In this document: positions 12,943 to 54,753 of the stretch, in pieces | How positions within the stretch are numbered: the stretch's first letter is position 1 | How the letters are laid out: every line of letters starts with the position of its first letter | Assembly (NCBI GenBank): GCA_903813345.2 | Contig: CAIIXF020000005.1 | Location: 32,739,375-32,803,374, forward strand | Reading direction: 5' to 3' | Source of the DNA: Owenia fusiformis | Lineage: Eukaryota > Annelida > Polychaeta > Sabellida > Oweniidae | Length of the DNA: 64,000 nucleotides | Program-made: the position numbers and the translations under genes | The notes under the pieces: model-generated | The model's database searches: none | Told to the model about the DNA's origin: nothing | Seen by the model: only the letters and a program-made list of their open reading frames with translations

Positions 12943-15900
12943 ATGGCGCGGACGGCAAAAATAATTACAGTGATTTTGTTAGTATTTGGCTCTGTCTTTA
13001 GTAAGTTTCCATTTGAAGATATAACCCTTTCATGGGATGAACGTGTAAATGACATTTTGGATCGTTTGACGTTGCAAGAAATGCAAGATCAGATGGCGTA
13101 TGGAGGCTCGACGCCCGCACCTGCACCCGGAATTTCTCGTCTCGGCATCAAGCCGTATCAGTGGGATACAGAATGTATACGAGGTGACGTTGATCTGAAT
13201 GGTACATCGTTCCCACAATCCATAGGTCTGGCGGCTTCATTTAAGTAAGTATTGCAAATTATTCATTTCTTCATTTTATATTCATTTTGGGGAGGTACTT
13301 ATGGATTTCTTCAATGAGGGGCGGATCTAGGAACCAACAAGGGGGATGCAAAAAACTTCTGCGCTTGCCCAGTAAAATTTTTGGGCCTTTTAAACCAAAA
13401 TGTGGGCTGTAATTTTGAAATTTTGACCCATCTGGGCCCATTATGACCAAAGAGGCCCACTTTTTGGGGCCTTAAGGTTCAGCTGGAAAGTAACATTTTG
13501 GTAAAAAATTGCTATACCTGCACATGTTATTTTCTGGTACAAAATTAAGTATGAAGTTGTGTGTGTATTTCCTTGCTTTTTTCAGGAAAGTATCATTACA
13601 CTGTTTACTTATAGAATATCTAGAAACAGGTCAATGGTAGATCCTATGTTGTCTGGAAACTTTGAAAGAAAATTTGGAAAAATAGAAAGTGTGAAATATC
13701 AGAATTTCCTGGAGTTTCCATTGAACCCCTACCAGATATTCTAAAAGAAGACAATGTAATGATACTTTCCTGAAAAAAGCAAGGAAATTGACACATGCCT
13801 TCATACTTTATTTTGTACCAGAAAATAACATGTGCAGGTATAGCAATTTTTTACCAAAATGTTACTTTCCAGCTGTACCTTAAGGTCAGGGTGCATGATG
13901 GGGAATTTTCTGCATTCCTCAATTGAGTCACATGTTATTTTTCAAACAAGAATCACTCCTTCCCCACATTGTCTATATCTTCCAGTTTTGCACAAAGAGT
14001 GCACTTATGTGCCTAGAAAAGACTTGTGAGAAGTATGTTTTGATGAAGTGTATAAAAAACAAGAAAATTCAGTGAAAAAAATCAGAAAATTTTCAGAATT
14101 TTTTTTCACTGAATTTTCTCATTTTTATACATTTAACAAAACAAACCTTCTCACAAGGCTTTTCTAGGCACATAAGTGCACTCTTTGTGCAAACTTGGAA
14201 GATGTAGACAATGTGGGGAAGGAGTTATTCTTGTTTGAAAAATAACATGTGAATCAATTGAGGAATGCAGAATATTTCCCAACATGCACCCTGTCCTTAA
14301 GGTAGCGTTAAAGTTAATCAAAAGTACAAAAAATGGCAGCCATATTTTTTTGATAAAGTCACAAGGTTTTGTTTATCTGTTTTCCTTATATGTGAATGCA
14401 TTTCCTGACTAAAGAGACGTGTCAAAGAAAACTTAACATTGAAACGCATCTTTTATAACTGTGAATTGGAGGTGCATGGGTCCCTAAAGCTTTCTATATT
14501 TGCACATAGCCATCTTTAGATAGATGGCTATGCAAAACTCGGTAATCCCAGCCCATGTTAAAGGTCTTTTTCAGAAATGTTAGAAATCATGGGAACACTT
14601 ACACTACTTTCATAAAATATCTTTGTAATAATGGTAGAACGCTAACTGGAGTTGGGAGACAGTGAAATTGGCGAAAAATGTTGAAGAGATGATAATTTTC
14701 AAGATGGCTTCTCAGGAAGTTAGGTAATGCGCATGCGCTTCCATGCCATGAGATTTCCGCTTCCGGTTACACGCATGCGCATTGGCAAGACTTCCTGGTC
14801 AGACGACATGGAAAATAACAAGTTCCAAATACATTTTTCGTCAATTAAACTGTCTCCCGACTCCAGTTAGCGTTCTACGATTATTACAATGATACTTTAT
14901 GATGTTATACATCGATTGAAGTAGTGTAAGTGTTCCCATGATTTCTAATATTTCTGAAAAAGACCTTTAACATGGGCTGGGAATATCGAGGAGATAGCTT
15001 TGTGTAAACTAAGTAACCTAAAGCTAGCATGGAGACAGTGAAGTGAGGATAACTTTTTAAAATTTCAAGGAGTAGGATTGCAATGGAGACACATTTGTAA
15101 GACTCCAAAATTTCCACAAATCGTCTTACCTTAGCAAGGAACAACGAAGAAGCATTAAAATGTGTGCTTCTTGCACTATTATACTCTTGGAGTATAATAA
15201 AGCTCAATCCATTGTGAATTCTAAATATTTCATGTCCACCATTTTGTTTGCTGGGACTATTTTCTAGTCCAAAGTAATCCTCACTAATGTATCCATTGTT
15301 TATCATTTATAAAGCCTCAATCATATATCTATCATGATAATTATACTGTTATAGATAATCCATGCCACTTGGTGAAGTCACAAAACTTAAATGAGGATTA
15401 ATCAGGAAGTCTAGAAGTAGTTCCAGCAAACAAAATGGTGGACATAAAATATTTATAAGAAACTATGGTTTTAGCTTTATCATACTCTAACAAAGCAAGT
15501 GCACACTTTCATGCTCCTTCCATGTTCCTTGGTAAGGTAAGATGATTTGTGGAAATATTGGATTCTTGCAAATGTGTCCCTGTGCAATCCTACTCCTTGA
15601 AACTTTCAAAATTTAGGCTCATTTTATGGTCTTCATGCTAGCTTTGAGGACCCATGCACCTCCAATTACTCAGATGCAAGTAGGTAGTAACCAGTTTCAC
15701 CACCAGGTGGCTGATTCGGGGAAATTAACATGGCAGGGTATTACAAAATTCCCTTAAACTTGAATATGCATCAGTTTTAATGGTTCACTTTTCATATTAC
15801 CTTTATGTATCTAATAGTTATACAAATTAAAATATGTCCAGTAGAAGAAAATATTATCTACTCAACACAAGAAAAGATATTTCACTTTTTGTGGTTTTAC

Positions 15901-42900: not shown

Positions 42901-45900
42901 TGTCAGTAAAGTCTCGTCTACTCATTTTCAGGATAACCATTTGACGGGATCACCCATTGGTGGGGACATTTTGTACACATTTATGTTCTTGTATAAATTT
43001 CTGTCTTTTTTTGAATCCGATCTTAAACCTGTGAGTAAAACCATCTATTAATTGTTTTGCTTTCTCTGGATAATAACCGTCAAGGAGAATTGGGAAGATT
43101 TTACAATTGATGGGATTTGTCCTTGAATCATATTTTAAATAGGAGATGTCCTTTTTGAGAAATTTATTTTCCCGATTTCATTTGGATGGAGTACCCGGCT
43201 TGTGTTCGTTGTTGCATTTTTTACACAGGTGTATGTATGCAATATTTTCCCCTGTTACATATCCCTTTGTTTGCAAAGCTATAACAGTGACCTTCTGGCG
43301 CTGTCTTGATATTGGTACTTGAGGTTGATTTGAATCCGCTACAAAAATTAGATTTAGATGGGTATGACTCTTGTTGCTTTGATTGCCGATGGCCTGATTT
43401 TACACTTTGATTAGATCTCAATTTCTTATACCCCAAGTGAGACTCGCTGATTTTTTGTGCAACCAAAAATTCTCATCGTAGAGTTTTGCAACATAGACAG
43501 AAACAGGTGTATTTTTACTTGGAGTAATACCTGTAGATTTTCTTTGTGATTTCTCACTTGGTCTTTGTAAGTCAGGACTATGAATTATGTAAGGACTTTG
43601 TATGTTGTCTCAACTTTGACCTTTGTCCAGACTTGGTAGTTTGTATAGGCTTTGTAGTTTGTCTGAACTTGTCTGTATCTTTTCTGGTCCAGTCTGTAAT
43701 CTGGTATGTTTTCAAATCTTTCTTGGACAAAACTGTTTTTTTCCGAATACGGTCTTTGATATCAGTAGCTGTGATTGGTAACTGATCTGTGAACGACAAC
43801 ATATGTAGAGGTAATTCTGCACCATCTGACCCATCGTCCTCTTCGAGAAGATTCTGTCAATGAACTTTTCTACAGGATTTTGGCTTAGGTTTCTCTTTCC
43901 TAGCCTCATGCCATTTTCTAATGTCATCACAACGCGATTTCAGATGTCCAAGTTCACTGCTCTTATGACAAGTTGTTGAACGGAACCGGCATATATTTGC
44001 CTTGTGGTCGCCACCACATCTCCAGCAAGTTAGTTTATGAATCTGGTTTACGGATGCATTTGTTGATGTTTAAGTGTCAATTTTTTGCAGGAAGCAGTCA
44101 CACTTTCCTCTGCTTGTGCTATAGATATAACTTTAGCAAATGTAAGTTCAGATTCTTGTATTAGTCGATTCTGTTCTTTCAGAATATTTAGTCCAACAAC
44201 AAATTGCATACACAATGAGTCTTCTAAAAAGGTCCCAGATTTGCAGGTTGGTGGTAACTTTTTCCAATCTATGACAAAATTGGATATCTTTTCATTGGGT
44301 TGTCGGGTCCTTTTCCCGAATTTGTATCTTTCAAAGATTAGCAGAGGTTCTGGTTTGAAGTGTAACTTTAATTTTGTGCTAATATCGTCAAAAGTTTCAT
44401 CAGAAACTTTATTTGGCAGACATACGTTTTTCAATGTGTCATACGTTTTTGCATCACAAGCTGCTAAAAAAAACACTTACATTTATCTTCTTCAATGTCA
44501 TTTGCAATGATATATTGTTCAATCCTTTCTATGTAATTTTCAAATGGCTCTACCTCGCTGTTGAATTCTCCAATTTTTCCTATAGTCATTTTGAAACTTG
44601 TTTTTTCCAGAAACATCTCCAGCAAGTTAGTTTATGAATCTGGTTTACGGATGCATTTGTTGATGTTTAAGTGTCAATTTTTTGCAGGAAGCAGTCACAC
44701 TTTCCTCTGCTTGTGCTATAGATATAGCTTTAGCAAATGTAAGTTCAGATTCTTGTATTAGTCGATTCTGTTCTTTCAGAATATTTAGTCCAACAACAAA
44801 TTGCATACACAATGAGTCTTCTAAAAAGGTCCCAGATTTGCAGGTTGGTGGTAACTTTTTCCAATCTATGACAAAATTGGATATCTTTTCATTGGGTTGT
44901 CGGGTCCTTTTCCCGAATTTGTATCTTTCAAAGATTAGCAGAGGTTCTGGTTTGAAGTGTAACTTTAATTTTGTGCTAATATCGTCAAAAGTTTCATCAG
45001 AAACTTTATTTGGCAGACATACGTTTTTCAATGTGTCATACGTTTTTGCATCACAAGCTGCTAAAAAAAACACTTACATTTATCTTCTTCAATGTCATTT
45101 GCAATGATATATTGTTCAATCCTTTCTATGTAATTTTCAAATGGCTCTACCTCGCTGTTGAATTCTCCAATTTTTCCTATAGTCATTTTGAAACTTGTTT
45201 TTTCCAGAATTTTTGAAGTCCCAATTAAAGTTCAATTTTCTCCACTTTACAGTCTATTAGTACTTTATTTCACACATTGAGGTATTATTTTTCTGTTCTT
45301 ACTTGTTTTGCTACTATCCTCGTCACCATTGTGAAGTTTGAAGTTTATATATTGCTATTGTACAAGGGGTGATCAATAAGTAATGGACGCTTTTTTACAC
45401 AGATACTTTTTATAGACCAATCCCTTTGATTTTCCTACCAGTGATACATCATTCAATTATCTATCAATTCTGAAGATTTGAAGACAAAATATATAATATA
45501 TGTTGATATATCCTTATTTCCGTGAAGGAGGTACAGGTACCCCGAGACCGACATTTACGTCACATATTCAGTTTTTAGCCAGTTTGGCAAATTTCAGTTA
45601 GATTTGAACTTTTTATATGCAACAAGTGTTGTGTTGTTTGACATTTTTTGCTGACTGGTAACACATAAACAGAAAGTATTGTGATGTCAGAGTGTTGTAT
45701 GGAAGGGGTTTGCAGGTCAATTTGAGAAAGCATTGTGGAAGAAAGGGGTGGTGAGAGAAGGGAACACCCTACTCCATATGGACAATGCACCTGCCCACAG
45801 ATCTCAAAATGTTCAGAAAACAATATCCCTGGACCTCAAAATTGAGCTCTTGGTCAATGCACCATATTGTGCAGATCTGCTCACATGTGACTTATTTATT

Positions 45901-48900
45901 TCTATACTACTTATTTCTATAGAGAAAGGATGCAGGTTTATTGTCATTGATGAAATAAAACAACCCGTGCAACTGCATCTTGCTACCATGTCAGAGAATG
46001 GATTCAGCCTTGTCTCACAATCTTGAGTTAAGAGGATGAGTAATTGTGTACATGTAGCACTTGATGGAACCTATGTAGAGGGACCTGTGGAATGAATGTG
46101 GCATGAATACCACATAGTGATGATAAAATATTCAAAATCAACTATGACATAACAAAATGGGGTAATTCATGACCATAATAGTTTGTTTTGTTCAGCCTGC
46201 ATTCAACTGCATTGCATGTTAAACAAGCTAAAATAGCTTCAGAATGTTTGACGTAAATGTCGGTCCCGGGGTACCTACACATCCTTCACGGAAATAAAGA
46301 TATATCAAAATATATTACATGTTTTGTTTTCAAATCTTCAGAGTTGATAGATAATTGAATGACGTATCATTGGTAAAAAAATCAAAGGGATTGGTCTATA
46401 AAAAGCATCTGTGTGAAAAAGCGTCCATTACTTATTGATCACCCCTCGTAATATGTACAAGTTTACCAATAACTAACACAGACATCATCTCAGTCTAAAT
46501 CATGGTGGAATCTCTATTTTTAGCCTTATATGGTACACATGTGCTTTTTTCCAAGATTCCATTTAAGAGCGCAATCTATGAATGGACTCAACAATAATTG
46601 ATGAACATTACACAACATTTAAACAAAAAAGTAAAAACCTCTAAATTAGGTTGATGGTGAAATGGTAGCATATTGCACTGCACACCAGAGTCATATTTGA
46701 AGGAGACATTGCAGCCATGTATATTTAGAAACATCCCTTGATTGGAACACAAAGATGAGAATACTGTTTATGAAGAATGCTTCAATGTCCTCTGTCTGTT
46801 CTACAGTATGTACCTTCTGATGATTGTATTCTTGTGGCATTTGTGAATAAAATGGTTGGATCTCTTGCAGTAATGTCACTGTTTGCCAAATGTGTGACAC
46901 TGAATAGAAATTGATTGTATTCTCACTTTTGGCATTTGTGAATAAAATGGTTGGATCCCTTGCAGTAATGGCACTGTTTTCTAAATGTGTGACACTGAAT
47001 AGAATTCAGTTTATGGAGAACCTTATAATCTGTGTGATTCATTGGGTGCCACCAGAGTCTGCCAAGCACTTCATATTCCACTGTGGCCAATACAATAAGA
47101 ATAGAAAACAACCGTTGTTCACTCCTTTAGGGTAACACCTCACCTGGCAGATGCATGGTTGTTTTGATGGATCTGTGCATTTACTCTTGTGAGATCAAAG
47201 TAAAATTTGATAGTTGTAAAGAAACAATTATCCCCTATAAATGCCCTGATAGAAAAGATGGAACAATAGCTTTGAACATCATGCACACAATGAATATGTT
47301 TTCAAGTTATTTTGCTAATATCTGTAATTCTCATTCTAAATAACCATTTTTTCATGCAATGTAAGTATATGTATGCAATCAATATGCTTGGCCATAAACC
47401 TTCTTATTCTATATTATCACAGCTTGAAAAAGCTTGAATAATTGTTTAAAATATAGAAACTGAATTATTGCCTTTTACTATGAAAAAAGGTGCAAGTAGT
47501 TTAAACTTGAAACTAATGTCTTGTTTACTGGATAAAATATAACCTCCATCAGTGTTATTGCTCTGTCCCATATATTTGTCATAAGTATAATGATAGATTG
47601 CATATTTAGTTTTTAAACTAATGAGTCACAACTATGCCATACTTGACTATTTAAATTGACATACAAGACCCACAAGACCCACCTTTTGGCTACATAAGTG
47701 TTTTTTATGTGGAAACCTTTTCTTAAACCTTAAAATGTAGAATGCCAAACTCTGATCATAATTTAGAGGATTTTAGAGGTCTGAGACCAGTTCATGATGT
47801 ATAATCTCTATATATTTGTGTTCTTCAGCCCAAAATTGCTGTATGAAGTAGCAAAGACCACAGCTCAAGAAGTGCGTGCTTTCAACAACTATTTTGAATC
47901 CCAAGGAGACTATGGGATGCATAAAGGTCTTAGTTGCTTCAGCCCTGTTCTTAATATACACAGACATCCTCTTTGGGGACGCAATCAGGTCAGTTCATTC
48001 AAGGATGTTATGTCACAGCAAGCCTATAGAGCTCTAGGTATTTCATTAGTTCAGTAGGCATTTTGAAACCCAATATACCTAATCAATATTCAATAGCCTC
48101 AAAAATATCTGTTTGATATGAGTAGAGTACATGTTCAGACTACAAATATTCAAGAATGCAAATCTTGAAATAATTGTTTGATTTTCCATGCTCTTTGTTG
48201 TGCTGTGATTAGTGGGCTATTTGTGAGCAAGTAATAATATGTTCTACAGATACCACATGTACAGTACTATTATATTTAATGCATTAATACAATTCAACTA
48301 GAAGTTGTGCTTAAATTTGGCTTTCAGGAGACCTACGGAGAAGATCCATATATGAGTGGCGTCTACTCTCAACATTTTATCTGGGGTTTACAAGGTGATC
48401 ACCCAAGATATGTAAGGGCTAGTGGTGGCTGTAAACACTTTGATGTACATGGAGGGCCAGAGAATATACCTTCTTCAAGATTTGACTTTGATGCTAAGGT
48501 AAAATATGAAAGCAAAATGGTCAAGTGGAAAAAGAAAGTTTTAAAGAATTTAAACAATTTACTTTTTTTAAATATTTATTTTATTTATTTGCTAACATGT
48601 TATAACATTGGCATAATAAATTTTTAGCAGCTAAAATTTAATATACCGAAAATCCAAAGTATTTGATATTACTAACTGAATATTGTACATACTTAAAATA
48701 ATTTTTATTACAAGCCATGGGGCTTGTATAATTGGCATAAAAAGTGTTTTACAGTGTTATCAAATAAAACATATAGATTATGAGGAATGTCTTAATATTG
48801 TTTCGGATTTCAAATGTTGCCCTTGTATATGGTGTAACATGAGGTTTCAAGAGGTTGTGTAGACAGAAAGCCATTTTTTATTAATCACACTTTGATGTTT

Positions 48901-51900
48901 CTGATTGGTGTTTTGTAATTTTACAATATCTCAGTAAATGTATTGTTTTACTAAGGTGTCTACTAAAGATTGGAAGGCAACATTTCAGCCTGCATTTAAA
49001 GCATGTGTTAAGGCAGGCACATACAGTCTAATGTGTAGCTACAACAGGTATGTTCAGGGTACTGAAGTATGAAACAAATTTGCTTTTCATATTAAATTTA
49101 TTTGAACTATTGTGCACTTAAATTTTTTAACAATACTGTAATAGTGTAGCACTCAATGTTTTTTTGTATTATAAAAAACATATTACACATCAACTTCAAA
49201 CCCATCCTATATAATAACCTGTTAGCAGCTCCTTCATTTTACTGACATTTCCTTTTTGTCATACTCACATAAAAATACTTACTCTGTATATTATCATTAT
49301 CTCACATTTCACACTTGAAGATTATTCTGCTCTTCATTTGTGATATAATTTATCACAGTGCATCTTGTTATTTGTATTTCTAAATATTCATACATTCAAT
49401 TATATCATTTCCAGCAAGACATTGTATTTTGACCTTTGCATTCCTGCTTAATACAACACTTGATAGTTGAGTATAGTCAGTATCCAATAGAAAATAGAGA
49501 CACAAATATTTATATAGATTTTCCTTGTTGTAGTATAAACGGTGTACCTTCATGTGCAAACAAAGAGCTCCTTACTGACATCCTGCGCTATGAATGGGGC
49601 TTTACAGGCTATATAGTTAGTGATGAAGGGGCCATTGAGAATATTATCACTCACCATAAATACCTCAATGATAGTGCTGAGACAGCAGCATCTTGTATCA
49701 ATGCAGGGACAAATCTAAATCTTCCTGTTCCCCCGAACATATATTTGTCTATTACCGAAGCAGTCTCAAAGGGTTAGTGTTTTCTCAGTGGAATTGCTTA
49801 CCAATGTGCTTCAGTCAATGTTTTAAACACAGCACTAAAAAATTGACAAGAAGTGTATGCTTACATTCATCCACTCATCTTTTAATCACCCGCTAGATAC
49901 AGTTTATCATTCACATTAAAACTGAATACCAAATACCTGAATTGATCAAAAACCACCCATGAAAATGCCTCTCCCCACCCTTACCAAGGAATGGCCGAGT
50001 GTCACCCTTACATACCAGCATTTATACCACAGAAGACTTGCATATTTAGTAATTGATTCCAGTATAAATGGTATCCCTTCATGTGCCAATAAGGAGCTAC
50101 TTACTGACATCCTTCGTTATGAATGGGGCTTCACTGGCTATGTTGTCAGTGATGATGGAGCAATAGAAAATATTATTACTCACCACCACTACCTAAATGA
50201 CTCTGTTCAAACTGCAGCAGCATGTATACACGCTGGTACAAATCTTAATCTCCCTATGGGACCCAATGTATACCTCCACATAGTAGAGAGTGTTGAACAG
50301 GGTGAGTTTCTAGTAATTAAGCCTTTCCTATTCACCACATAAACCCGATGCTAGCTTAGCTCAGAGTATATTGAAATTACCCACTTGCCTTGCCTGTTCA
50401 TGTGTTTGTCAACAATATTTACATTTTAAGCTCTCCGATTCCCGTTTCTTTTCATTATCAATAAAAATAACTTTATGACTCCTACTTTAAAATCATGAAC
50501 TATTTTGATTAATATGTTTCAAGTTAATCTTTCATGTTCTATTAAAAAGATTTTAAAGTCTTTTGAAACATGTGAAAAATGGGATATATGGAAAAATAAT
50601 AGTGAAATATGGTAAAAATAATATTTGCTACTATTTTGAGTGAAATCACACCATGTGAGATCAAAATCCTGGTACTTTTTATTTATTCAGTTGAGCTTTC
50701 CTCTAATCACATGTACAGTTCAAAGCACTTTTTGTTTGTTCTTACTTTTATTACTTGTGGAGCCATAGGTTATGTACTATACTTAACTTCTGCTTGCTTT
50801 ATTACATTTCTCATTGCATCCCACTTTCTCTGTATCTCAACAGTCTAATTAAGGTGTTGTGTCATGTTTATAGAAATATATTGCCAGCCTTCATACTTAC
50901 AGTTTTAATATACCCACTTGTGCTAACAAGGATGCTAGTTATTAATGACAAGATATGTTACGAATGAGGCTTCACTGGGTATGTCATTAGTGATGACAGT
51001 TCTATATAGAATATTATCACTCGCCACAACTGCATTAAGGGCTGAGACTTTAATTCAGTTGCATAAAATGCTGAAACCAGAAGTAGCCTTCCTTTTCCCC
51101 ACTTTCCCATCGCTCAAACAATTAACAATTTCATTAAGTAATTAAGCAAGCATAATGTACATTAAGTGTCTAGATACAGAGTAGATAAATTATAGTTAAC
51201 ACCTGTTCTCTCTAATCAGATTTGCTGATGAAACAGCCTTTTTTGGGGTTATCAAATTATTCTCCCTTAAATCTGTCAAAGCAGGGATGAATAACTCTTT
51301 AATTCATATCTTGCGACCATGAATTGGCAAATAAATGTAAAGAATATACATGCAGTATGAAATTAAGAGTAATAAAATCTGATATCATTGCTAACTGTAT
51401 TTAAAAACATGGGACAGTTTCGTCTTAAGAACTTCACATCCTAACCCCATTTGTTTTTTGTGCTCTCAAAAAAACTATCCATCCTTTTTGTCATGTCATA
51501 GAAATACACCTTTTATTGATGTAGTGCTGTACATTTACGACATTATAGTGATTAAAATGTATTTTCTGTCTGCCTTTCCCTGTATCTGGCCCTAATAGTT
51601 AAGTTAACATAGTCTACAATTTTTCCAACTAACAATTGATATTGCTTGCTTGAAAAAATGTTAATTTCAATTTAAAATTTAAATCTTCTTTTTTTTTGTT
51701 GAAACATATAACAATTACATTTTAACATCATCATAATTGATGCTGTCAGGGAATGTTATAATTATAATGATAGATGTAGATAATACTTATAAGTTTATCT
51801 TTATTATATAGAGTTAATATCAATTATTGTTATGACATTATAACATCCTGTAGCCAATTATTGGCATAAAGATGCTTCACTATTTAATGGTTCAGGTCTA

Positions 51901-54753
51901 GTTACTGAGGAAACTGTGAAAGAGCGTGTAAAGCCTTTGTTCTACACTCGTATGAAGCTCGGAGAGTTTGATCCACCGTCACTCAACCCATATAAATCGA
52001 TAGACAGGTCTATTATCCAGAGCCCTGCCCATCAAGCCCTGTCATTAAGAGCTGCAATGGAATCGTTTGTACTTTTAAAGAATGAAGCTAACATGTTACC
52101 TTTGAAAGGTTCTGTAAAATATGGGGCTGTAAGTATATGTATGTATGTATGTAAATTTGTTTAGATACATTATGTAACTAATAAATACCAGAGTGAAATT
52201 AGTTGTTTTATTCACCATACTTGTAGTGTTGAAACTTAGATTCGAAATGGGTTAGATTCCCTTGAATAAACAATTTGAACTGTACATCATTAATTTTTAT
52301 TCATTATCAAGTTAAAACTATGACAATTACAACATTATATAAATCTCACTGTTGAATTCCAAATATTTATTAGATTCTTTTACAAATATCCAAACATTTT
52401 TTTAGTTTCATTGTAGGATTGTTTAGCTTGTCAAAGTTTGTAAGTTTTAATTTTGATAAACTGCTTTTCTGACAATCTGTTTTCAAATTTATGCAAGCTT
52501 ATAGGTCTGACATTTTTAACGTTGGATTTTAGATTCTTGGTCCATTTGCGGACAATCCCGATCAGATGTTTGGAGACTATACTGCCAAACCAGATGCCAA
52601 GTATATCACAACCCCCATGTCTAGTCTTACTGATGTTATAGCAGACAAGACATATTACAAACAGCTATGTGATAACAGTGATCCTCATTGTTCTACTTAC
52701 ACACAAGCAGCTCTACAAGACCTGGTACAGTATGCTGACATTGTTGTGCTATGTCTAGGAACAGGTGATTGTGTTTGCTACATTGTGTGCTACATTGCCA
52801 TCTTTTTATGAATTCAATCTTTTTTCAGCTTTTTTTGCTGAATTAATATGTGCAAGTAATGTTGCCATGCATCTCATTGATATGAGAAATATATCTGATC
52901 TGATCCTTAGTTAAGGTTTTTATGTGTAATACAGGACAAGCTGTTGAGGCTGAGGGGAATGACAGGCCTGACATGGAATTACCTGGCAAACAAAAACAAA
53001 TGTTAGATGATGCCATCATGTACAGTAAGTATGATTCTGTACTTTGTTTGTGAAGTTTTTGATAACAATGAATGAGGAAAAAAACAAAAATGTCAGTTTT
53101 AAATCACTATACTGCAACTAATATTTGACACTAATATATTACGCATTTTCATGGCTATAAATTTATGCTAATTATTAGTCTTTTGAAATTTTGCAGCTAC
53201 TTTTGCTTTGTGACTTCTAGAACCTGAAACCTTAATAAAACAGTACTTTGAACCTTCCTACCTTTAATCAGTCATCACTGGACAAAAATATTGAAATCAT
53301 TGAGCGAAATAAATTTCATGTCTATTACATTTTGCATATAAGAACTATTTGAATTTCATGGCTATTGTATTTTGCAAATTTCCTAAAACTCGCGAAAAAT
53401 GTGAAATATAGTAGCACGCAAAAATTATCAGGAGTACAGCATTAGAAATGCAATATTTTCATCAATACTTGAGTAATGTGTATATGTGATTGTTTACAGC
53501 CAAGGGAAAGATCATCTTGCTGTTGTTTAGTGCAGCCCCTCTGGACGTTGCACCAGCTATAGCTTCTGACAAGGTATCTGCAATCATCCATTGTTTCTTC
53601 CCCAGTCAGACTACAGGAGAAGCTATCAGAAGGGTTCTCTTCAATGATGGCCCTGGAAGTAACCCAGCTGGCAGGTTGCCTTTCACTTGGTACTCATCTC
53701 TTGAATATGTGAGTCTGTTATTTAATTGTTGCATTTTCAGATAACTACACTTTTTGGTAATTGAAAATAATTGCTCTTGTAACTTTAGTGATTTAGTAGA
53801 CATTCTGCTTTGTAAAATGTTACAACAGTACATAAATAAAATATGGTTTAATTAAATTGAAATTGTTGCTTGTAGGTGTTACCGATCACAAACTACACTA
53901 TGGTGAATCGAACCTACCGTTACATCCAGGGTGATCCTACACTGCCCTATGGCTATGGTCTTTCATATTCATCATTCAACTACACTTCACTGACCATCAC
54001 TCCAGCTGTTGTTAAGGCAGGCAACAATGTCACTGTAGTTGTAGGTGTGAGGAACATAGGAAAGATTGATGGTGATGAGGTAATTTGGGTTTAAACTTGA
54101 ATGTTGTGTTTTATTGTCATTGCTTTCTTCACATTCAAACAGAAAATACCTAAATCTTTTCTTGGTTTTTCCATTTAGGAAGCTTTATATTTAAAAATAA
54201 TTTATAGGTAATACAGCTGTACATATCATGGGTTGGTGTCCAGGAAGTCATGCCTAAATATCAACTTGCTGGTTTTGACCGTGTTTTCTTGGAAGCCACG
54301 CAAGAAAACTGGTACAAGTTCACAATCACAGCTGAGCAGATGGCTGTCATAGATGATGCTGGCAGACAGACTGTTGTACCATGTATGTTTTGCATCTTGT
54401 TAAATAGAACTTTTAGATGTGTTTATATGTTAAAATGCATTCAAAACACTGTAACCAAATATTACCACTCCTGCTCCTTATCACATTTTTCTGGAGGTCC
54501 CCAGTGAGATTTTTATTATTTGTTTTGCATTCATAGTTGTTTGTTCAGGTAAGTTAAACTTATCTGACCAATACCATTGTATCCATAATGAGAAGTATTA
54601 GATACACATGACTCTGGAGCTTTTAATTCATTTATATATACTCTTCATTTATTTTCAGGTACCATAAATGTGTATGCGGGAGGACAGCAACCCAACCAGA
54701 AGGCATCAGTTGGATCCAATGTACTACAAGGAAACTTCACAATACAGGCATAG
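12943..54753 (+). CDS. Secreted glycoside hydrolase family 3 enzyme, beta-xylosidase/beta-glucosidase-like (12 exon positions)
   Basis: Exons: 12943-13244, 47829-47988, 48328-48498, 48956-49047, 49534-49772 or 50063-50301, 51896-52128, 52533-52764, 52935-53024, 53500-53708, 53876-54079, 54208-54382, 54659-54753. All junctions are GT/AG and phases match, giving about 733 codons. The start ATG sits in a strong context (caaaATGG) and is followed by a hydrophobic signal peptide (about residues 1-20), so the enzyme is probably secreted or lysosomal. GH3 landmarks in order are AASFN at the exon 1/2 junction, LWGRNQETYGEDP (exons 2/3), CKHF (about 189-192), MCSYNSINGVPSCAN (exons 4/5), the nucleophile motif GY(I/V)VSD (Asp about 272), EAEGNDR in exon 8 (a candidate acid/base Glu, inferred), YGYGLSY, and a C-terminal fibronectin-III-like domain (about 610-700). 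The family cleaves beta-linked xylose or glucose; substrate here is unknown. AATAAA lies at 54929. Odd points are a 34.6-kb first intron and a duplicated catalytic exon. Confidence 0.93.
13316..16365. mobile_element. Composite of nested palindromes inside a GGGGCGGATCT-type MITE
   Basis: The outer shell (13316-13472 and 16264-16365) matches the small element at 17880-18085 in style (ggggcggatct start, poly-G end). Within it lie consecutive or nested inverted repeats: 13472-13889 (arms about 135 bp), 13886-14301 (arms about 200 bp, centre about 14094), and 14302-16263 (outer arms about 150 bp). The last encloses 14460-15665, which contains two more foldbacks centred near 14760 and 15345. No coding region is supported; ORFs here are accidental. 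Confidence 0.72.
17056..17760 (-). pseudogene. hAT/ZNF862-like transposase relic (N-terminal half)
   Basis: On the minus strand the longest open piece (17457-17056) contains NVHALVKHGKSFRDFKWLC and SMIVDGATDSSITEQ, typical of the DUF4371-like region of hAT-derived ZNF862/KIAA1586-type proteins. Upstream, up to about 17760 and in other frames, are KFKRHIDSAWAKGRPWL, CPFCMKW and KSKAHMHA, which look like the preceding TTF-type zinc finger. At least two frameshifts and a stop separate the pieces. A poly-G MITE (17880-18085) sits just upstream and may interrupt the 5' part. Confidence 0.6.
17880..18085. mobile_element. Short GGGGCGGATCT/poly-G MITE
   Basis: It starts ggggcggatctgggaacc and ends in a poly-G run followed by agggggctg. 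The body matches the ends of the composite at 13316-16365 (accaacaaggggg, cgcttgc, gggcc runs, gaaattttga). It appears to interrupt the upstream part of the hAT relic. Confidence 0.6.
18340..19990. other. Intron sequence with nothing recognised
   Basis: It contains short ORFs on both strands (for example + 18810-19121, 103 codons), none with family motifs or splice support. Confidence 0.4.
19995..21647 (-). mobile_element. Ty3/gypsy retrotransposon relic (gag start fused to RT)
   Basis: Reading minus from 21647, a gag-like N-terminus (IPANFRFKSEEWKSCIRKF) is followed, after frameshifts, by a pre-RT block (about 20760-20640) with VKANLDKLQ and ATNWVNSIV. RT motifs come next at 20610-20398 (IDSTDLNKCIRY, MSKLDLASSFFQI, NTPWGR) and then the IMIWGSTRDEHDSRL region near 20290. 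The tail (20183-19995) has NGVMADDGRIQAILKMEKP, the usual segment after the RT core. The YxDD box is damaged and the frame is broken many times. Most of gag and the protease are missing. Confidence 0.72.
21956..23255. mobile_element. Transib/RAG-like non-autonomous DNA transposon, copy 1 (1300 bp)
   Basis: The ends are inverted repeats of about 46 bp starting CACGGTGTAT, with two mismatches between the arms. The element is flanked on both sides by the 5-bp duplication AAGAA. Inside, about ten copies of a short motif (AAACGCTCC or its complement) are scattered in both orientations, concentrated near the ends. There is no transposase ORF. A CAC-starting heptamer-like terminus and a 5-bp target duplication are hallmarks of the Transib/RAG superfamily (RAG heptamer CACAGTG). 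Confidence 0.8.
23880..24540 (-). mobile_element. Reverse transcriptase relic, Penelope-like or related non-LTR
   Basis: Minus-strand reading gives GIPIGTDCAPLLADLFLF (about 24490-24430), DRYIDDLLSLDNPKF with a YIDD catalytic box (about 24360), and then FNFDIVNFPHLDSNIPLNP, YGVYVSQFIRYCGAC and KLLGQGYTCKQLKYFL down to 23889. A frame change separates the pieces at about 24245. This RT type is common in marine invertebrate genomes, but I cannot assign the lineage firmly. No endonuclease domain is visible. Confidence 0.6.
25239..25432. repeat. Direct repeat, left copy (about 190 bp)
   Basis: This is nearly identical to 26599-26787, in the same orientation. It starts near tttgcatttgcatgcagca and ends near cagtaattttcat. 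The pair brackets the DIRS-like ORF1 remnant, so it may be a terminal or split direct repeat of that element. Confidence 0.8.
25425..26339 (-). mobile_element. DIRS-like retrotransposon ORF1 (gag-like) remnant
   Basis: On the minus strand the ORF begins MPPKSRKKDCEIGEDILVQF at 26339. It continues through SPFEWAVANARIMAKLVQSG (25903 ORF) and LSHLDIKHLKRKQ to a Cys cluster, YPCKDYNSEVGCSRTTC, near 25440. The pieces lie in at least three frames, so it is dead. The arrangement matches the upstream ORF of DIRS-like (tyrosine-recombinase) retroelements. It is bracketed by two direct repeats of about 190 bp. Confidence 0.55.
26599..26787. repeat. Direct repeat, right copy (about 190 bp)
   Basis: Second copy of the repeat at 25239-25432, with a few base differences. 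The flanking sequences of the two copies differ. Confidence 0.8.
26790..28355. other. Intron sequence with nothing recognised
   Basis: AT-rich, with only short ORFs and a small hairpin (tgttgattaattgcttaatc) near 26972. Confidence 0.4.
28360..29043 (-). mobile_element. LINE ORF1-like remnant (coiled coil plus RRM-like region)
   Basis: On the minus strand, 29043-28807 encodes a coiled-coil-like stretch (IILSLQQMSAMKDDMNDIK, NKMKGTMRSMNDR). 28749-28360 encodes the RNA-binding half, with IHEFVQEKLKLTSGIQGFNR, HKLGVKRDGEIRPIVLHF and NAKNLKGSKLSLYRQYPDEV. This matches the layout of L1/Tx1-type LINE ORF1 proteins. The two parts are in different frames and no ORF2 is seen nearby. Confidence 0.6.
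29132..30391 (-). CDS. Three phase-matched exons of an unrecognised coiled-coil gene (partial)
   Basis: Minus-strand exons 30391-30199, 29799-29717 and 29350-29132 have canonical AG/GT borders and compatible phases. Together they encode about 165 open codons. The first is a coiled coil of heptad type (VRRLEENLGQQDEEIQ, then LMKEVKSLKEANKQLEEK). The second contains FMPTPYSESALRREG and EEALEGD. The third contains KRRAFGLSDGSAVVRFLSW and FTKHQLATG. I recognise no domain. Clean splicing across three exons argues for a real, possibly expressed gene or a young intron-bearing mobile gene. The 5' and 3' ends are not resolved. The hAT-like exons upstream (31200-31925) could belong to it, but the phase at 31203 does not fit simply. 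Confidence 0.5.
31200..31925 (-). pseudogene. hAT transposase-like (ZNF862/KIAA1586-like) exons
   Basis: On the minus strand, about 31920-31765 encodes a stretch with LTQLWCLFQNSPKKM. It is spliced by AAAAAG|GTACAA to an exon starting at 31664 that opens with ACKTRWLSFDKSFEALL, the (C/G)xTRWLS hallmark of hAT-derived proteins. A third block at about 31330-31203 has WEVLPVLSELSSS and PAIDYAKQKLREI before a gtaagc donor. Members of this family are transposase-derived zinc-finger proteins. At its 5' side it abuts a Ty3 pol fragment without a splice signal, so the copy is truncated or chimeric. Confidence 0.55.
31925..33420 (-). mobile_element. Ty3/gypsy pol fragment interrupted by the Transib-like MITE
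   Basis: Minus-strand sequence 33415-33347 encodes DLIASSRGDLGKTAIAKHR. Beyond the MITE, 32095-31925 encodes NTGKTAPIKQQ, FPFHKKKEEEKALKDMLKQG and VLVNKKDGTQ. Together these are the pre-RT region of Ty3/gypsy pol. Removing the MITE and one GTATT copy leaves the two halves adjacent but one base out of frame. The fragment ends abruptly at about 31925, where hAT-like sequence begins. Confidence 0.65.
32096..33346. mobile_element. Transib/RAG-like non-autonomous DNA transposon, copy 2 (1251 bp)
   Basis: This is homologous to the element at 21956 over nearly its whole length. Its right end, read inward, starts CACGGTGTCC; the left end has CACGGTATCC. The flanks carry a 5-bp duplication, GTATT. 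It has inserted into a Ty3 pol fragment whose two halves continue on either side. The same AAACGCTCC motifs occur inside. No coding capacity is seen. Confidence 0.8.
33793..34007. repeat. Direct repeat, copy 1 (about 205 bp), flanking the DIRS-like remnant
   Basis: Nearly identical to 35457-35665, same orientation (core tagcacatgttgtccgctgc). This copy is itself bracketed by a direct repeat of about 31 bp (starting aattaaactcatgtgactt at about 33761 and again at about 34008). It may be a split direct repeat of the DIRS-like element. Confidence 0.8.
34281..34927 (-). mobile_element. DIRS-like element, internally deleted: RT start joined to tyrosine recombinase end
   Basis: Minus 34927-34592 has YSKWENGLSEDNDKDFILNG and YNGFRIIDEDAF, the usual entry to a DIRS-type RT. 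Minus 34595-34281 has FSTLSFRRGGASWGLQCNL, DIIQLMGDWRSSAYQRYLE and KVIKDF-like ends, the C-terminal catalytic part of a tyrosine recombinase with its RxxGA block and nucleophile Tyr. RNase H and most of the RT are missing, so an internal deletion joined the two ends. Confidence 0.7.
35457..35665. repeat. Direct repeat, copy 2 (about 205 bp)
   Basis: Second copy of the repeat at 33793-34007, with only a few differences. It lies about 1.65 kb away, on the other side of the DIRS-like coding remnant. Confidence 0.8.
35882..36793 (-). pseudogene. Tyrosine-recombinase-like C-terminus in two exons, frameshifted
   Basis: The minus-strand exon starting at 36793 (acceptor gtttcag) encodes GVSKTIVRRFITYIKTKEP and SSVGKILVLMSNAAGYTG. 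The exon at 36002-35882 (acceptor tttgcag) encodes QFLAHSEATNTLYYDR and ends with TAA at 35882. The second block has the HS-x2-T-x4-Y pattern expected around the nucleophile Tyr of tyrosine recombinases (Crypton/DIRS-like). The first exon needs a one-base shift near 36560 to read into the second. It could be a domesticated recombinase gene or a Crypton relic. Confidence 0.42.
37625..38500. repeat. AT-rich satellite with about 130-145-bp units rich in TTCTTGAA
   Basis: About six imperfect units share gtgccattttgcacttcaag, attcttgaac and cagaacaaatcttgaac segments. TTCTTGAA occurs about 14 times and its complement TTCAAGAA about 5 times by eye. It lies between the BEN-like gene and the recombinase-like exons, in GH3 intron 1. 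Confidence 0.75.
38865..39624 (-). CDS. Small BEN-domain-like nuclear protein, one A-run frameshift
   Basis: Three exons on the minus strand: 39624-39488, 39329-39065, 38932-38865. The first intron uses a GC donor (AG|GCAAGT), the second GT. The N-terminus begins MAESSIYN and carries repeated TPTKK-type motifs, KKRKP (a likely nuclear localisation signal) and an acidic SDSDSDDE run formed across the first junction. The C-terminus (MITRIVLTAFTSEQLARG ... GKK ... LNAETLQTVEAV) resembles the end of BEN domains, which bind DNA or chromatin proteins. An eight-A run (plus T8 at 39181-39188) throws the frame, so the uncorrected product stops at about 96 residues; with one more A it would be about 156. 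This could be a sequencing indel, a polymorphism or real inactivation. It is nested antisense in GH3 intron 1. The BEN call is by pattern only. Confidence 0.55.
40086..43466 (-). mobile_element. DIRS-like retrotransposon relic with a MITE inserted in it
   Basis: Minus-strand order is as expected for DIRS. 43466-43221 is a gag-like segment with a Cys-rich cluster (HCYSFANKGICNRGKYC). 41473-41237 has the RT entry (RGSVNKGILSADTSVTYQT). About 41140-41000 has LPIGCSSSCSIFESFS and the catalytic HLLDDFLSVGPPNS. 40625-40371 is RNase H (LYTDASGNLGYAGVL, FDISTKELIPIV). 40358-40086 covers the end of RNase H and the start of the recombinase (KNKQTMALQRQLILTCL, VSKLVGDSLATSTKE). Many stops and shifts are present. 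A 1.43-kb MITE (41540-42969) separates gag from RT. Confidence 0.68.
41540..42969. mobile_element. Non-autonomous DNA transposon with internal tandem units
   Basis: It has 12-bp inverted ends, ATGTCCCCACCA, at 41540-41551 and 42958-42969. After a CCATCCGTCC/TGTCTG simple-repeat patch (about 41585-41635), the body consists of about six units of roughly 110-160 bp (starts near 42119, 42278, 42440, 42605, 42722 and 42870). Each opens with GCCATTTTGGATTTTCC or a close variant. It has no coding capacity and is inserted within the DIRS-like relic. Confidence 0.72.
43546..45215 (-). mobile_element. Ty3/gypsy gag relic with an internal 597-bp tandem duplication
   Basis: Minus 45073-44645 and 44476-44048 encode two almost identical gag blocks (FFLAACDAKTYDTLKNVCL, LKLHFKPEPLLIFERYKFG, FVVGLNILKEQNRLIQESEL). 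A zinc-knuckle segment follows (CWRCGGDHKANICRF, then GHLKSRC) at about 44035-43930. Next comes EEDDGSDGAELPLHMLSFTD and DIKDRIRKKTVLSK (about 43850-43720), which normally lies after RNase H. Protease, RT and RNase H are therefore deleted here. Several frameshifts are present. Confidence 0.68.
44016..45209. repeat. Head-to-tail 597-bp tandem duplication
   Basis: Copies are 44016-44612 and 44613-45209, both starting acatctccagcaagttag. I see a single clear base difference (ataact against atagct). The unit is 597 = 3 x 199 bp, so it keeps the gag frame. The near identity points to a recent event or an assembly artefact. Confidence 0.88.
45361..46450 (+). mobile_element. Mariner-type DNA transposon with long inverted repeats and a transposase remnant
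   Basis: The ends are inverted repeats of about 200 bp starting TACAAGGGGTGATCAATAAG (left) and TACGAGGGGTGATCAATAAG (right, read inward); the outer TA fits the mariner target duplication. Between them, + strand 45733-46026 encodes a piece of transposase with GNTLLHMDNAPAHRSQNV, which contains the second catalytic Asp of the DD(34)D triad, followed by a degraded tail. The first catalytic part is deleted, so the copy is inactive. Confidence 0.8.
46830..47111 (-). mobile_element. Gag zinc-knuckle fragment, tandemly duplicated
   Basis: The minus strand near 47010-46925 encodes QCHTFRKQCHYCKGSNHFIHKC, which contains a CX2CX4HX4C zinc knuckle as in Ty3 gag. A second, more decayed copy of the same roughly 95-bp segment lies at about 46830-46920, where + strand ggcatttgtgaataaaatgg is repeated. 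No neighbouring gag or pol is intact. Confidence 0.5.
49534..49772 (+). CDS. GH3 exon 5a: first intact copy of the catalytic-nucleophile exon
   Basis: This 239-nt exon has acceptor ttgttgtag and donor g|gttagt. It completes a Ser codon from exon 4 (ag+t) and ends one base into a Gly codon completed by exon 6 (g+gt). It encodes the end of the GH3 barrel, including INGVPSCANKELL, YEWGFTGY and the nucleophile motif IVSDEGAI. It lies 290 bp upstream of copy 5b and has no stop or frameshift. Confidence 0.88.
50063..50301 (+). CDS. GH3 exon 5b: second intact copy of the catalytic-nucleophile exon
   Basis: This exon has exactly the same length (239 nt) and phases as 5a, with acceptor gattccag and donor g|gtgagt, which is the stronger donor of the two. 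It encodes INGIPSCANKELL, YEWGFTGY and VVSDDGAI. Against 5a it differs at 16 of 79 complete codons. These include the residue just after the nucleophile Asp (D for E) and several residues in the last third. Joining 5a to 5b gives GTA then TAA at once, so both cannot be used together. Confidence 0.88.
50903..51115 (+). pseudogene. Decayed third copy (5c) of the GH3 catalytic exon
   Basis: An AG acceptor-like site at 50901 is followed by sequence that aligns with exons 5a and 5b through the ANKELL, YEWGFTGY and SDD segments. The YEWG Trp codon has become TGA (gaatgagg in place of gaatgggg), and an in-frame TAG follows the SDD codons. The 3' third is closer to 5a (gctgagac is shared) and fades out near 51115. 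I infer an older tandem duplicate that has lost its coding function. Confidence 0.75.

Follow-up and report, generated by a model that had tools for sequence, protein, structure and literature searches.

An intact tandem pair of nucleophile exons in a GH3 glycosidase gene of Owenia fusiformis, putatively used one at a time

A twelve-exon GH3 gene and its predicted product

The 64,000-nt stretch of Owenia fusiformis DNA analysed in this study (the window) carries a complete GH3 gene of 12 exons on the forward strand, which runs from an ATG at 12943 to a stop codon at 54753 and encodes a product of 733 residues (Table 1). The first intron, between exons 1 and 2, measures 34,584 nt (about 34.6 kb), and a search with the N terminus found two exon-1-type exons in the genome, one for each of two GH3 genes.

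Table 1. Exons of the GH3 gene and features of its duplicated exon, in window positions
Feature	Position	Strand	Basis
Exon 1 (start codon, signal-peptide-like N terminus, start of GH3 domain)	12943..13244	+	tblastn with paralogue N terminus; in-frame join
Exon 2	47829..47988	+	spliced gene model
Exon 3, bears K190-H191	48328..48498	+	gene model, residue alignment
Exon 4, donor CAG/gtatgt, ends directly before the duplicated exon	48956..49047	+	gene model
Exon 5a, nucleophile exon version a (VSDEG, D272, E273)	49534..49772	+	gene model, residue alignment
Intron separating 5a and 5b, 290 nt	49773..50062	+	
Exon 5b, nucleophile exon version b (VSDDG, D272, D273)	50063..50301	+	gene model, residue alignment
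Exon 5c, decayed third copy	50903..51150, end approximate	+	repeat search, tblastn, genome search, alignment
Exon 6, downstream acceptor common to both copies	51896..52128	+	gene model
Exon 7	52533..52764	+	gene model
Exon 8, bears inferred acid/base E483	52935..53024	+	gene model, residue alignment
Exon 9	53500..53708	+	gene model
Exon 10	53876..54079	+	gene model
Exon 11	54208..54382	+	gene model
Exon 12, including stop codon	54659..54753	+	gene model

Within intron 1, an inverted repeat at 45361-46450 has 209-nt arms that are 91% complementary and 672 nt apart, and a 113-codon open frame inside it gives a weak match to DDE_3 (E 0.017, below cut-off); the element looks like a decayed DNA transposon. 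Two identical 300-nt stretches lie 597 nt apart at 44016-44912, where minus-strand frames bear a weak likeness to Ty3-type capsid (E 0.0033, below cut-off), weakly suggesting a recent tandem duplication within a retroelement remnant. Upstream of exon 2, two 79-nt direct copies, 94% alike, are found 95 nt apart at 46831-47004.

The predicted protein contains GH3 N-terminal, C-terminal and Fn3-like domains in order (Pfam PF00933, E 1.9e-40; PF01915, E 8.3e-39; PF14310, E 6.2e-11; all three above cut-off), and the gene product appears to be a secreted-type GH3 enzyme that is beta-xylosidase/beta-glucosidase-like. A PDB search matched 81 distinct sequences with E values of 0.001 or less; among the 60 of them listed, the closest solved structures were the fungal beta-xylosidase entries 7vc7 (E 7e-91) and 7vc6 (E 2.3e-90). 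Hand counts on the alignment with PcBxl3 placed D272 at its nucleophile D267, E483 at its acid/base E470, and K190-H191, Y415 and E77 at its K183-H184, Y407 and E62, respectively; judged from this alignment, the catalytic residues are kept. The strand-c Glu of beta-xylosidase type, in place of Asp, is kept as E77, and Trp60 of PcBxl3, described near C5 of xylose, is replaced by D75. Bacterial xylosidase models match far under their cut-off (Xyl3A, 510 vs 1250 bits), and the sugar preference of the enzyme cannot be read off from its sequence.

Copies of exon 5 and their divergence

Two copies of exon 5, each of 239 nt, of equal phase and with usable splice sites, lie between exons 4 and 6, both of which are single. 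Exon 4 ends in TAC AAC AG, 5a and 5b both start with TATAAA and end in G, and exon 6 starts with GTCTAG; the frame is open through 4-5a-6 and through 4-5b-6, each of which gives the full 733-residue protein. In 4-5a-5b-6 the junction reads AAG GTA TAA, a stop two codons into the reading of 5b, and direct joining of exons 4 and 6 reaches a TGA in exon 6 after four codons beyond the final complete codon of exon 4, both stops lying far upstream of the last exon junction. The first-pass annotation of this DNA had described two intact 239-nt copies of the same phase with a nucleophile motif in each, and a frame logic under which only one of the two keeps the protein open; the coordinates, splice dinucleotides and junctions were all reproduced. 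Its count of 16 differing codons of 79 needs correction, as 16 is the number of residue differences (sites 246, 269, 273, 284, 290, 291, 295, 298, 307, 308, 311, 314, 316, 318, 320 and 321) and 48 of the 79 codons differ, 32 of them silently and 16 not. At the nucleotide level the copies differ at 66 of 239 positions, with 43 of these 66 differences in third positions, and a tblastn alignment covers their full length with 79.7% identity (E about 1e-43). When the introns of the cluster were joined and scanned in overlapping windows of 79 codons, 2 of 1,854 windows were open; on this count and the E value, two open 239-nt copies are more than chance. In sequence the pair has the features of mutually exclusive exons: the two are homologous neighbours, equal in length and phase, and their joint use or joint omission breaks the frame.

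A third copy, 5c, which was absent from the first-pass annotation, is preceded by an intact-looking acceptor at 50901-50902 (the acceptor-like CTTACAG is kept), and its marks of decay are four stops within the frame of the match, indels that shift the frame and the lack of GT at the aligned donor position. Over the better-aligned part it is 71% identical to 5b and 68% to 5a; over the last part (about 98 nt) identity falls to 41% and 48%, respectively, and the alignment there means little. Third-position bias is less pronounced in 5c than between 5a and 5b (44/98 vs 43/66, p 0.016), also when the better-aligned part alone is taken (22/40 vs 22/27, p 0.036). This weaker bias is as would be expected of decay, with modest significance and with the poor 3' alignment bounding the use of 5c as an internal decay control. 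The array is thus read as having had at least three members, one of them dead, which points to exon birth and death within it. Loss or degradation of one copy had been named beforehand as an observation that would speak against two alternative exons, and it was found for 5c, with 5a and 5b both free of it.

In the other GH3 gene, which lies on contig C11, exon 5 is single, intron 4/5 is at the same place, and exons 5 and 6 form one exon with no intron between them (locus L004, 4361-3891, minus strand), so that either the paralogue lost that intron or the window gene acquired it; exon swapping would be possible only in the intron-flanked state and not with the fused exon 5-6 of the paralogue. 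Genome searches with the Pfam model, the N terminus and exons 5-6, which can miss weak matches, found only these two GH3 genes of such type, plus 5c and one weak match (E 0.62), and the exon-5 matches in the genome were 5a, 5b, 5c and the C11 paralogue. Because 5a and 5b resemble each other (80% identity) more than either resembles the paralogue (58% for 5a and 56% for 5b), the exon duplication probably came after the two genes parted, and gene conversion could mimic this closeness.

Between 5a and 5b, three methods gave dN of 0.156, 0.169 and 0.148 and dS of 3.95, 1.56 and 2.69, respectively, dS being saturated and dN/dS consequently rough. When both copies were allowed to drift in simulation, 3,614 of 20,000 runs were stop-free and none of the 20,000 had as few as 16 residue changes (mean 40.7, minimum 28); with drift of one copy over half of the differences, runs that were stop-free with 16 or fewer changes numbered 36 of 10,000 starting from 5a and 17 of 10,000 starting from 5b. 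With the paralogue as outgroup, 6 of the 16 differing residue sites were 5a-like, 4 were 5b-like and 6 were neither, and nucleotide changes were divided 19 vs 27 between the copies (p 0.30), suggesting that 5a and 5b have changed about equally, with neither ahead. Both copies look constrained and long separated, and the purifying selection that the first-pass annotation had asked about is accordingly borne out for each, as judged from their mutual divergence in one genome (dN 0.15-0.17, simulations), an estimate that averages over the entire time since duplication and in which splicing of one copy could have ceased recently without this showing. For the first half of the exons, gene conversion need not be invoked, silent codons being about as common there (10/30 up to the nucleophile) as after it (22/49).

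Exon choice and alternative explanations

We consider mutually exclusive use of 5a and 5b, enforced at least by the reading frame, to be the best reading of this locus and a quite probable one. Exon 5 of a secreted GH3 gene would have been duplicated in tandem long ago, at least two times, 5a and 5b would have stayed under selection as alternatives, and 5c would have died. Each mature mRNA would take either 5a or 5b, faulty mRNAs with both or neither would be removed by nonsense-mediated decay, and the reading frame would act as main enforcer. The 5a:5b ratio in each tissue or stage would be set by a putative splicing regulator. Less certainly, the two enzymes may differ subtly, through E273/D273 beside the nucleophile and an altered loop after strand h, and such a subtle difference might lead to tuned specificity, pH behaviour or stability more than to a new substrate class.

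The donors concerned in exon choice are all GT, with 7/9 and 8/9 matches to the U2-type consensus, so a U2/U12 clash is not indicated. A human survey describes a steric-clash criterion of under about 50 nt from donor to branch point (PMC5740500); the intron between 5a and 5b is 290 nt long and the nearest upstream AG lies 13 nt before the 5b acceptor, so that nothing points to a branch point close to the 5a donor. Intron pairing of the docking-selector type was rejected as the switch, because shuffled sequences equalled or beat the best gapless score in 165, 19 and 97 of 200 cases for the three intron pairs; the shuffles kept non-overlapping base pairs in blocks and not exact dinucleotide counts, and gapless pairings only were scored. 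Reading frame together with decay of faulty mRNA would be the simplest enforcer left, and in the same human survey mutually exclusive exons are reported to have lengths not divisible by three in 377 clusters (60%) (PMC5740500). Against exclusive use, an extra AG lies close upstream of both alternative acceptors (16 and 13 nt, vs 21 to 38 nt in four other exons of the gene), which could mean weak acceptor sites, and the decay of 5c implies that copies are dispensable on some time scale.

The death of 5c, which shows that copies in the array do die, and the fact that the duplication was not seen in the C11 paralogue also lend something to the view that only one copy is used and that the other is a recently silenced relic heading for the fate of 5c. 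We regard this as unlikely, as neither 5a nor 5b has a stop, an indel or a broken splice site, the one-copy drift that it implies over half of the differences reproduced the data in just 36 and 17 of 10,000 simulations, and there is no excess of change on one copy (19 vs 27 nt, p 0.30). The early stops created by joint inclusion and by joint skipping would equally suit a poison-exon switch, through which gene output is lowered and the protein difference hardly matters, and most substitutions are indeed conservative or away from described sugar contacts; a poison exon, however, does not need a full catalytic frame under selection in both copies, and we give this explanation a very low probability.

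Short tandem repeats can be misassembled, and two alleles or paralogues might in principle have been placed side by side. Such an artefact is, in our judgement, the least credible of the alternatives, since the copies differ at 66/239 nt, the surrounding introns have no significant similarity, exons 4 and 6 are single, and the exon-5 matches in the genome are 5a, 5b, 5c and the paralogue.

Isoform differences and known systems

According to the PcBxl3 alignment and published descriptions of GH3 active sites, 1 of the 16 substitutions hits a sugar-facing position, namely E273/D273 beside the nucleophile D272. V307M and P308G lie two and three residues past the position aligned with PcBxl3 Cys300, just beyond strand h, and the remaining 13 differences are at positions without a described role; both isoforms share one set of seven N-glycosylation-like motifs. 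The first-pass annotation had supposed that the nucleophile exon is interchangeable and that this could give different substrate pockets: interchangeability holds at the level of frame and motif, and different pockets are a conjecture, with one substitution at a sugar-facing position. Differences cluster after the nucleophile (14/49 residues vs 2/30 up to it), and they do so likewise in the comparison with the paralogue (25/49 vs 8/30), so this clustering reflects ordinary family constraint and was rejected as a sign of pocket tuning.

Residue 273 is E in 5a, D in 5b and E in the C11 paralogue, and it is the clearest candidate for an isoform difference. In barley ExoI, D285 is presumably the nucleophile. 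Its neighbour W286, at the position of residue 273, is listed as a subsite +1 residue (PMC6987092), and residue 237 of TrCel3A is described on the beta-face of the sugar, where PcBxl3 and TrXyl3A have a disulfide (PMC8913315), to which, from the alignment, Cys268 of PcBxl3 would belong. Among 73 bacterial relatives, as read by a motif match, the position is W in 39, F in 27, C in 5, S in 1 and Y in 1, and acidic in 0/73; these relatives were picked by two peptide patterns with the shorter alignment (A3) and are not a fair sample of GH3. The longer alignment (A2) matched 26 stretches in bacterial sequences and the shorter one 5 stretches in viral contigs, none of either a relative.

A broader proposal, which we put forward tentatively and hold to be somewhat doubtful, is that a single animal gene yields two secreted GH3 enzymes through the swap of a whole nucleophile-bearing barrel segment. 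The three animal exons compared all have an acidic residue 273 (E, D, E), which none of the 73 bacterial relatives has, and the E/D toggle might be a case of splicing that tunes a sugar-facing pocket wall. Copies in the array might be born and lost, as 5c suggests, and so achieve inside one gene what extra GH3 genes achieve in other lineages.

Tandem exons of mutually exclusive use are a familiar arrangement, including at the active sites of enzymes. Exons 6a and 6e of coq-2 are described, with RNA support, as exons of which one or the other is used in helminths, annelids and molluscs (PMC7434440); like 5a and 5b they are two internal exons of equal length (134 nt in coq-2), and their swap remodels the enzyme core and changes the product, whereas coq-2 encodes a membrane prenyltransferase of quinone synthesis and the window gene a predicted secreted glycosidase with its nucleophile in the putatively swapped exon. 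A survey reports nine mutually exclusive exon events that affect catalytic-site residues, such as fly CG42249 (PMC7954323), which share with the window gene a homologous exon swap at the catalytic site, but events of that type change key catalytic residues and the window gene keeps its nucleophile and all constitutive catalytic residues. In Rhodothermus marinus, the tandem-duplicated GH3 beta-xylosidases RmXyl3A and RmXyl3B are 93% identical and are reported to differ in activity (PMC6987092). One of their two divergent regions extends from strand g, with the nucleophile, to helix H2, within the stretch encoded by exon 5; these are, however, two whole bacterial genes, and as the second divergent region is in domain 2 (PMC6987092), the change in activity is not assignable to strand g-H2 alone. 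Splicing likewise gives property-changed glycosidase variants in Aspergillus niger beta-glucosidase BGL1A/BGL1B and other spliced lignocellulases (PMC11031446), by fungal intron retention as opposed to the exchange of a duplicated exon. PpSerpin-1 (cited in PMC12758981) resembles the window gene as a secreted animal protein in which exon duplication and splicing yield functional variants, and differs from it in being a protease inhibitor.

Among the open-access literature matches listed, none was seen that describes catalytic-exon exchange by splicing in a glycosidase, the glycosidase splicing known from them being fungal intron retention (PMC11031446). If transcripts confirm exclusive use, this gene would encode a glycoside hydrolase in which splicing swaps the catalytic exon, and it would offer a clean test of whether exon duplication can replace gene duplication in digestive enzymes, with the dead copy 5c as the built-in control of the array for decay. 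In the annelid Enchytraeus albidus, five extracellular GH3 beta-glucosidase/xylosidase genes are reported (PMC11083476), compared with the two GH3 genes of such type found in this genome.
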